A stretch of 64,000 bases of DNA from Methanolobus tindarius DSM 2278 (GTDB taxonomy: Archaea > Halobacteriota > Methanosarcinia > Methanosarcinales > Methanosarcinaceae): positions 904,879 through 968,878 of the forward strand of contig NZ_AZAJ01000001.1 in the NCBI RefSeq assembly GCF_000504205.1, written 5' to 3'. Position numbers and translations under genes: made by a program. Each line of letters opens with the position of its first letter. The first letter of the stretch is position 1. This document shows positions 49,040 to 52,749 of the stretch, in pieces. The notes below the pieces were generated by a model. It did no database searches and was not told where the DNA came from. It saw only the letters and a list, made by a program, of their open reading frames with translations.

Positions 49040-49387
49040 TCAAAGAATGCGTCTGTCTGGTACTTTTATCGCCACATACAGGTGATAAAGGAAAACCAGC
49101 ATTGATATCTGGAAAACAAGCAGCATCAAACTTTTAGCGTTATCATAGCGTGTGCTTCCAGGTACTGAATTTATCGTTACAAGTACCTCTAAAAGATATA
49201 GTACAAAACCTACTGTCAGAAAGACAAAATATTTTTTCAGATTGTTAAACGATACATAAATTCGCGAGCGTATGACATCGGGATCTATCCGTATCAGCAG
49301 ATATGATGTCAATAGCGCCAGAATCACTATACAAAGACGTATTGCAAGATCCAGAAAATGGAACGTTGAACTTAGACTCATAGCCAT
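49040..49387 (-). CDS. Small membrane protein with three helices
   Basis: A 115-residue protein with helices near residues 10-30, 50-70 and 85-106 and a basic C-terminus. No family is recognised. It follows the bactofilin-like gene by 38 bases in the same direction and may anchor that polymer to the membrane (inference). ATG codons at 49387 and 49381 are both possible starts. Confidence 0.6.
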   Translation of the reverse strand: MAMSLSSTFHFLDLAIRLCIVILALLTSYLLIRIDPDVIRSRIYVSFNNLKKYFVFLTVGFVLYLLEVLVTINSVPGSTRYDNAKSLMLLVFQISMLVFLYHLYVAIKVPDRRIL

Positions 49388-49425
49388 CCCCTCATATTTT
49401 TGTGTAACCCTATACCAAAAGTCAC

Positions 49426-50400: not shown

Positions 50401-50874
50401 CTAAGATTGTGCTATCCCACGCCTTACATCAACTGCAGGACCCCTGTCCATGCGAAGTGCTTCAGCCGGTGACAATAATAGCTGCCCTGTTGCCAGTATT
50501 TCGTCCTTTTCATCAACTATGATAACCTCATCTCCTGCCCTGAGATCTGGATCAACTGCAAGTACATGTTTTGCAAAAGCAGTCTTTCCTTTTGAGACAA
50601 ATGGAACTGCATCCTCACAAATTATAACTCTTGATGCAGGCTTTTCAAGTCCCTGATGAAGTGCAGCAGCTCCGTCTATACTGAGAGTGAGCATTCCGTC
50701 CCTTGCACGAACTGTTGCCATGTGCTTTCCGTTGAACTGGACCTGTCTTACGCGTTTTGTCCTTGAAAGCAGGAATGTAACACCATCAGGAAAAAGGATC
50801 TCTCCACAACCCTTACCGAACTGAATGTCGGCCATTGTCCTGACTCTAATGAGGTTTTTATCTGCATTGCTCAT
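50401..50874 (-). CDS. PUA-domain RNA-binding protein
   Basis: A 157-residue protein. The C-terminal 80 residues form a PUA domain (AKHVLAVDPDLRAGDEVIIVDE, then GQLLLSPAEAL), a fold that binds structured RNA such as tRNA or snoRNA. The N-terminal half is a small alpha/beta domain (FGKGCGEILFPDGV) found with PUA in archaeal proteins related to archaeosine enzymes. Its RNA target is unknown. It lies 130 bases from a structured RNA candidate. Confidence 0.8.
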   Translation of the reverse strand: MSNADKNLIRVRTMADIQFGKGCGEILFPDGVTFLLSRTKRVRQVQFNGKHMATVRARDGMLTLSIDGAAALHQGLEKPASRVIICEDAVPFVSKGKTAFAKHVLAVDPDLRAGDEVIIVDEKDEILATGQLLLSPAEALRMDRGPAVDVRRGIAQS

Positions 50875-50984
50875 AGTTGCTAAATAAAGTATAAGTTTTA
50901 AAATGATAGCGGTTAAATTGATATGAGATTATCCCTTATTTAAGGAAGTGAACACTATTTGCTATATAAATAATGTCAAACAGA

Positions 50985-50992
50985 TTTATATA
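50985..50992 (+). promoter_or_regulatory. TATA box of the structured RNA candidate
   Basis: TTTATATA lies about 25 bases before the first base of the outer stem, the normal archaeal TATA-to-start distance. Confidence 0.55.
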
Positions 50993-51012
50993 TAATAATG
51001 ACCAATTATAAG

Positions 51013-51116
51013 TTGAGGAAACGGGAACTACTGCTTGTAACTGTATTCAAAGGTATAGTAACTGTAACCAAGCAAAACCATTCATCCCCTCAAACATGTC
51101 CCCGTTTCCTCGTTGC
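51013..51116 (+). ncRNA. Candidate structured small RNA, about 104 bases
   Basis: A perfect 11-bp outer stem joins 51015-51025 (GAGGAAACGGG) to 51101-51111 (CCCGTTTCCTC). Inside it, TGCTTG at 51032-51037 pairs with CAAGCA at 51069-51074, and ACTGTA at 51040-51045 pairs with TATAGT at 51054-51059 around the loop TTCAAAGG. The stretch 51083-51091 (CATCCCCTC) stays unpaired. The stem is GC-rich in an AT-rich spacer, a TATA box sits at the right distance, and T-rich sequence follows. No C/D or H/ACA boxes, and it is not a recognised tRNA, SRP or RNase P RNA. Strand is chosen from the TATA box. Confidence 0.6.
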
Positions 51117-51249
51117 TCAATAACAGATCAAGACTTCTTTTATGTTGTTTAACTGATCAGTGTAAACTCTGATTTTTTGTTTCAAGAATGTAGTTAAAAA
51201 TACAAATTTCTATTTAAGAATCAGAAACAAAACTGAATTTGTTTTGCGA

Positions 51250-51292
51250 TAAATAAAAAAGAAAACTAAGCCAAAGGTCAGTTTAACCTTTG
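51250..51292 (-). terminator. Hairpin terminator of rtcB
   Basis: On the minus strand CAAAGGT and ACCTTTG form a 7-bp stem across the rtcB stop codon, followed by TTTTCTTTTTTATTTAT. Confidence 0.6.
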
Positions 51293-52749
51293 ACAACTCC
51301 CATTGGAAGTACACGTGCAACTTTTGTAGCGATTCCGAGGTTATGCACTACATCCACAACATCACTACTGGATTTGTATACCTCAGGCGCTTCCTCGGCT
51401 ATGAGTGATGGCTGCGTTGCTCTTACAATAATTCCCTGTGACTTCAGTTCATTCTGAATCTCTTCACCACGCAGTTCTTTCTTTGCACTGCTTCGGCTCA
51501 TAACTCTTCCTGCACCATGACAGGCACTGCCGAAGGTAAGCTCCATTGCAGCAGGGCAGCCTTTAAGCACATAAGATGCAGTGCCCATACTTCCGGGAAT
51601 GATGACCGGTTGTCCTATATCCCTGTAGTCTTCCGGAATCTCAGGATGACCTGCAGGGAATGCTCTTGTTGCACCTTTCCTGTGTACGTAGACTTCCTTT
51701 TCCTTGCCATCGATCATGTGTTTCTCAAGCTTTGCAACATTGTGAGCAACATCATACACAAGGTCAAGTCCCAGATCACCATGTTGAGCTTTGAAGAACT
51801 CATCAAAAACCTCACGTGCCCAGTGCATTATCATCTGGCGGTTCACCCATGCATAGTTTGCTGCACACGTCATGGCCTTGAAATAATCCTGTGCTTCCTC
51901 CGAGCTTGCAGGAGCGCAGGCAAGCTGTTTGTCAGGGAGAGGAATCTTATACTTTTTGGAAGCCTGTGTGAGCTTCTGGAGATGGTCAGTACATATCTGG
52001 TGACCTGCACCACGTGAACCGCAGTGAATCATGAAAGTTATCTGTCCTTCCTTAAGACCGAAAGCCTTTGCGGCTTCCTCGTCATAGATCTTGTCCACAT
52101 ACTGTACTTCAAGGAAATGATTACCACTTCCAAGAGTTCCTATCTGTGGACGACCTCTTTTACGGGCTTTTATACTGACCTTTGAAGGATCAGCACCTGG
52201 CATCTTGCCATTGCTTTCACAATGACTTAGATCGCCTTTCATACCATATCCATTCTTAACAGCCCAGTTTACACCATTGATAAATACCTCATCCAATTCC
52301 TCATCAGTAAGTCTCATGCGGCTCTTGGAACCAACACCTGAAGGAATTGCTTCGAATAATGAATCGAGAAGCTCAGCCAGCCTTGGACGGACATCATCTT
52401 CCATAAGATTGGAACGGATAAGGCGAACTCCGCAGTTGATGTCAAAACCTACACCTCCCGGACTAATCACACCTTCATTCTTATCGAAAGCTGCAACCCC
52501 ACCAATGGAGAATCCATAACCAAGATGTGCATCCGGCATCGCCATGGAGTATTTCTGGATTCCCGGCAGGGAAGCTACGTTTGCAACCTGATCGATGGTT
52601 TCAGGCTCCAGAATATCAAGGAGAGGTTTTGATACGAATATCCTTCCCGGAACATTCATCCCTGGTTTGTAATTACCGGATACCTCCCACGTATTATCAT
52701 TTACTTTAGTGAGAATATCGAAAATTGATGTTGCATTTTCATCTGACAT
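51283..52749 (-). CDS. rtcB: RNA-splicing ligase RtcB
   Basis: Joins 2',3'-cyclic phosphate and 5'-OH RNA ends in tRNA splicing, using GTP. The metal-binding DINCGVR near residue 102, [10 protein letters not shown] near 244, NRQMIMHW, and the guanylylated His in ACHGAGR near 414 are present. Length of 488 residues shows that no intein interrupts it. It lies 135 bases downstream of the archease gene on the same strand. Confidence 0.96.

Follow-up and report, generated by a model that had tools for sequence, protein, structure and literature searches.

Few archaeal small RNAs (sRNAs) have known targets, and those cited here come from single genera. In Escherichia coli, the sRNA IstR-1 pairs with the upstream ribosome standby site of the tisB mRNA and not with the Shine-Dalgarno (SD) sequence itself. 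For Methanosarcina mazei, it has been reported that a single-stranded linker of the 191-nt sRNA162, which that work detected in Methanosarcina only, masks a ribosome-binding site (RBS; PMC3510493), and that loop 2 of sRNA154 masks the RBS of glnA2, with other mRNAs being stabilised (review PMC5867862). A 2015 study of Methanolobus psychrophilus reports 195 intergenic starts (PMC5378194).

Here, we analysed a window of 64,000 nucleotides from Methanolobus tindarius DSM 2278 (G000:C1:904879-968878, genome size 3.15 Mb), to which the positions below refer unless stated otherwise. As judged by comparison with related genomes, positions 51015-51111 (plus strand) are a real, widely conserved small RNA gene, which is presumably expressed. 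The most far-reaching view, to which we give a probability of roughly 75%, is that this sRNA and a single mRNA form a dedicated one-to-one pair that three families of one archaeal order have kept: hairpins with SD-like sequence in the leader, tandem in Methanosarcinaceae, would act as receiver for the sRNA, both partners would have co-evolved base by base, and the pair would control a putative winged-helix regulator. From sequence alone, the pair offers a target with a predicted binding site as well as compensatory changes that arose in nature, and it is present in methanogens and probably also in their methane-oxidising relatives.

The gene measures ~97 nt up to the end of its closing stem and has homologues in 65 of 150 related genomes (BLAST). 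As expected for an independent gene of a trans-encoded base-pairing sRNA, it is intergenic and has its own conserved BRE/TATA promoter (CAAACAGATTTATATAT, 50977-50993, plus strand), located ~30 nt 5' of position 51015, the predicted start. Sequence and spacing are kept in the homologues inspected: in those listed, TTTATATA or TTTAAATA follows a CAAACA-like BRE ~30 nt 5' of the first G of the stem. A first-pass annotation had proposed an RNA gene with its own promoter, about 104 bases long and with a T-rich end. Gene, promoter and T-rich stretch (51134-51141, plus strand; from its sequence a possible termination region) are retained here, the size being revised to ~97 nt to the stem end. A search of Rfam 15 yielded no family above threshold (best score 24.5 bits, gathering score 55). 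The neighbours are a divergent gene for a PUA-domain protein (50401-50874, minus strand) and the convergent rtcB (51283-52749, minus strand); in Methanosarcinaceae, the sRNA locus always lies between the two wherever both are visible, and the rtcB neighbourhood was seen in this family only. An rtcB transcript reading through the locus would carry a perfect antisense of the sRNA (51015-51111).

The predicted fold consists of an 11-bp closing stem P1 (GAGGAAACGGG/CCCGUUUCCUC, 51015-51025 and 51101-51111), in which an inner helix P2 (UGCUUG, 51032-51037, with CAAGCA, 51069-51074) and a hairpin P3 (51040-51059) are nested, all on the plus strand. P3 is of a Methanolobus type and variable outside this genus in the alignment. 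The folding energy is only moderately better than that of shuffled sequences (z = -2.2 on the plus and -2.7 on the minus strand) and does not decide alone; the reality of the sRNA was settled by comparison. Among 45 sequences, 95.2% of the pair cells of P1 and P2 are standard pairs, compared to at most 59% when the pairing is slid; six pairs are changed on both sides, and 14 double-change cells were observed, compared to 4.0 in shuffles and a maximum of 7 when slid. In P1, changes on both sides occur at 5 of 11 pairs. The 11-bp closing stem noted in the first pass and the inner helix were thus borne out by the covariation check. In the minimum-energy fold, CAUUCAUCCCCUC is unpaired, and the predicted target-binding segment AAACCAUUCAUCCCCUCA occupies positions 51075-51092 (plus strand). 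A further segment, ACUGUAACC (51061-51069, plus strand; last base shared with P2), is nearly invariant in Methanosarcinaceae without pairing with the leader described below and may be a protein-binding or second target site.

Scanning an 18-nt sRNA-derived pattern (AAACCRTTCATCCCCTCW) over 84,980 species gave 76 stretches. In Methanosarcinaceae, each match fell either on the sRNA itself, truncated at a contig end in two cases, or on a second type of locus, of which there were 12, and all 12 of these exact non-sRNA matches turned out to be antisense to the 5' leader of one orthologous gene; matches outside the family were scattered and chance-like. We had considered a paralogous sRNA at the second locus and rejected this, as the locus is a gene leader: it has a TATA box of its own, and its distance to the start codon is nearly constant. 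When up to three mismatches were allowed in the genome of M. tindarius, the best two non-self matches to GAGGGGATGAATGGTT were tandem sites in this leader, 38 bp apart (G000:C1:833291-833344, minus strand), ~123 kb from the sRNA and outside the window. The invariant AAACCAUUCAUCCCCUCA is complementary to both tandem hairpin loops (UCUGAGGGGAUGAAUGG), and all 30 target loci examined had at least one site; a tandem-site pattern with too wide a spacing recovered three genomes only. Conserved complementarity to an mRNA encoded elsewhere is what characterises a trans-encoded base-pairing sRNA. The C-rich segment had been likened to RBS-binding seed regions and recommended for target prediction: it is complementary to SD-like sequence in an mRNA leader, and the prediction led to tandem leader sites of one orthologous gene.

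The leader hairpins have the form AAACCAU-n-UCUGAGGGGAUGA-AUGGUUU (SL1) and AUCCA-n-UCUGAGGGGAUGRAUGGAU (SL2). An SD-like AGAGGC and then the start codon (ATG) of MKIRLEI... come 3' of SL2, and the leaders inspected have a TATA box ~110 nt before the SL1 loop. Each loop presents UCU-GAGG-GGAU, which resembles an SD sequence, and the sites are located about -75 to -20 from the start codon. In nearly every Methanosarcinaceae genome, UGAGGGGAUGRAUGG is uninterrupted in one site or more; genome G024 has an insertion in each site. The perfect site is found in SL2 in Methanomethylovorans-type and Methanolobus genomes and in SL1 in Methanococcoides-type genomes. In Methanohalobium-type leaders (L174, L176), the SL2 stem is kept, with a short loop, and its GAGGGGAU site is lost. 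The target gene (L164:1819-2772, minus strand; 317 aa) is divergent from a gene resembling proteasome-activating nucleotidase. Searches of Pfam, NCBIfam and PDB with the protein returned no confident family. AlphaFold models residues ~222-290 confidently as a C-terminal domain of winged-helix-like fold and predicts a Q/P-rich linker to be disordered, and the closest folds are the DNA-binding domains of RosR, BlaI/MecI and Fur type, none with E below 0.001. From these models, we infer a putative winged-helix DNA-binding regulator.

Pairing between sRNA and leader was compared across Methanosarcinaceae (f1) and the families f3 and f5, which may be ANME-2 lineages. The longest perfect complement of cognate f1 partners averages 16.5 nt, compared to 6.5 nt for shuffled sRNAs (maximum 11 of 600). 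For f1 sRNAs, it is 10.0 nt with f3 and 7.6 nt with f5 leaders; f3 sRNAs reach 15.9 nt with their own and 11.9 nt with f1 leaders, and f5 sRNAs 12.8 nt with their own, 12.7 nt with f3 and 10.4 nt with f1 leaders. The f5 sRNA therefore matches f3 leaders as well as those of f5, and f5 leaders are matched well by the f5 sRNA only. At the level of bases, the UUC of the f1 sRNA, which faces GAA, is replaced in f3 by CCAUCCAUCCCC with GGGGAUGGAUGG in the leader, and f5 combines AUCCCCUCCGAUG in the sRNA with CAUCGGAGGGGAU in the leader. Within f1, the sRNA of Methanosalsum natronophilum reads CCG where others have CCA (L093), and its SL2 reads CGG (L141).

The f3 sRNAs were first seen as weak model matches (E 0.002-0.04). 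They have a different closing stem (GGAAUUCGGG/CCCGAAUUCC) as well as CCAUCCAUCCCCUCA, and the leader of this family carries a single hairpin, with UGAGGGGAUGGAUGG; since the closing stem was misaligned, the joint f1 and f3 alignment was kept out of model building. Some f3 genomes (L220-L223, L208-L219) have two sRNA versions, one of 75 and one of 80 nt, that share the core. The f5 sRNA (~50 nt, stem GGGGC/GCCCC, TATA box upstream) was recovered in all four f5 genomes. Two of their leaders contain CAUCGGAGGGGAU, to which the AUCCCCUCCGAUG of the sRNA is exactly complementary; in the other two, the complement is shorter by one base. The case of f5 is less independent because its search pattern (TCCCCTCCGA) was derived from the leader; this pattern imposed neither the stem nor the promoter nor the conservation across the four genomes. 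Both f3 and f5 sRNAs have their own TATA boxes and closing stems entirely unlike that of f1, yet still paired.

These data bear on the idea that a protein or the ribosome binds the leader hairpins and that the match of the sRNA is a coincidence or a trace of remote antisense common ancestry. Leaders conserve the UC of UCUGAGGGG, which most sRNAs leave unmatched, as would suit such a binder, and which is predicted to pair within the hairpin; part of the conservation is indeed otherwise explained, as some of the sRNA-pairing bases are also needed for the stems of the leader hairpins. Duplex energies, too, reach only z = -2 to -5.6 against shuffled leaders, and in some f1 genomes 1 of 150 shuffles outdoes the cognate duplex. 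However, sRNA and leader have changed together, at separate positions, in f3, f5 and Methanosalsum, and complement lengths are far above those of shuffles, which makes this explanation very improbable. Comparison establishes coordinated change, as it does RNA gene, promoter, stem, leader hairpins and complementarity, and we regard pairing of the sRNA with the target leader in vivo as highly likely.

The constant position between the PUA gene and rtcB at the Methanosarcinaceae loci seen, together with the terminal pairing, had led to the suggestion of a Y-RNA-like molecule or of an RNA associated with RtcB or the PUA protein. This suggestion was abandoned and has hardly any probability left: a search of the genome for a Ro/TROVE protein, positive in the control genome Deinobacterium chartae, found none, so a Y RNA was rejected; no rtcB or PUA gene lies beside the f3 and f5 sRNAs within the examined flanks of 0.5-1.5 kb; and conservation peaks in the leader-matching segment. 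Just as implausible is that the minus strand carries the function, within the 3' untranslated region of rtcB. The stem would fold there too, but the conserved BRE/TATA stands at a fixed distance on the plus strand, the leader complementarity holds for a plus-strand RNA only and the f3 and f5 homologues lie away from rtcB; this candidate was dismissed on account of the promoter. A small minus-strand ORF (GAGGGGATGAATGG, resembling SD plus start) was likewise discarded, as its frame is disrupted among genera by an indel of one base next to the core (AGCAAAACC/AGCAAACC).

Both sRNA and target occur in 63 Methanosarcinaceae genomes, neither in about 24 and one only in four, namely the sRNA in two incomplete genomes (G061, G080) and the target with its leader sites in two genomes of genus g12, ~75% complete, in which the sRNA was not found. 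With one exception, genera without the sRNA also have no target gene. Co-occurrence is significant (Fisher p = 1.7e-17) in a test that ignores shared descent; co-absence could stem from a single loss, and the genome count may overstate independence. Genomes taken to be Methanosarcina appear to have neither partner: covariance model R1 gave no convincing match in these large-genome genera, and the core motif was absent from every record titled Methanosarcina in the 84,980-species scan. Methanosarcina could therefore be a clean reporter host. In a further family, f2, hairpins with GAGGGGAU are present in the leaders (as a pair in L242 and in L243, L244 being truncated at a contig end), and two patterns and model R1 found no matching sRNA, 30 of the 60 matches of one search having been read.

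How might the pair work? We propose that the unpaired AAACCAUUCAUCCCCUCA of a trans-acting sRNA would pair with one or both tandem leader hairpins of one conserved mRNA that encodes a putative winged-helix DNA-binding protein, starting at the hairpin loop and then invading the 3' arm of the hairpin. The sRNA would thereby compete with the 30S subunit at the SD-like loops and lower translation. In the sRNA, AUCCCCUC resembles the anti-SD sequence of 16S rRNA (AUCACCUC). Since the sites are near the start codon and resemble ribosome landing sites, 30S competition with lowered translation is the likeliest outcome, and we favour repression as the probable direction of regulation. Stabilisation or activation is a less likely direction, kept in view because sRNA154 stabilises other mRNAs, and a leader acting as sponge for the sRNA appears rather unlikely.

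A different view would be that the sRNA is a general anti-SD regulator of many mRNAs, with the leader hairpins mainly serving as titrating sponge. The octamer complement GAGGGGAT does occur 47 times in the genome, several times at SD distance from start codons, including positions 49386-49393 (minus strand) at the start of a 115-aa ORF (49040-49387), a possible second target of short complementarity only. We nevertheless consider this view improbable, as extended complementarity (about 14-20 nt), conserved over genera and co-changing, is confined to the leader, where the sites have a fixed place in one gene. Two near-identical AGAGGGGATATAATGAAGTTCACAATATCC sites stand at the start codons of 100-aa ORFs in the M. 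tindarius genome (L324, L349), which are likely a repeated gene.

Compared to known systems, our one-to-one pair of sRNA and leader shares with bacterial Y RNAs the closed terminal stem, in a genome without Ro protein, and with IstR-1/tisB the proposed standby-site mechanism; the latter, however, is a bacterial toxin-antitoxin pair of neighbouring genes, with no sequence relation to the present sRNA. As to homology with sRNA154, sRNA162 or sRNA41 of Methanosarcina, model R1 gave no convincing match in the genera taken to be Methanosarcina; sRNA154 and sRNA162 are compared here by their published descriptions. Like sRNA154, our small RNA exposes an anti-RBS segment in a loop and is conserved among relatives (PMC5867862). 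In contrast to the nitrogen-regulated, two-loop sRNA154 with its nif/gln targets, it appears to be dedicated to one target, and nothing seen connects it with nitrogen genes. Like sRNA162, it is an archaeal trans-acting sRNA that directs a single-stranded stretch, here by predicted pairing, against the mRNA of a transcription regulator, a putative one in our case. While sRNA162 acts on an internal RBS of a bicistronic mRNA (PMC3510493), the RNA described here measures ~97 nt, was not found in genomes taken as Methanosarcina and would address upstream hairpin loops.
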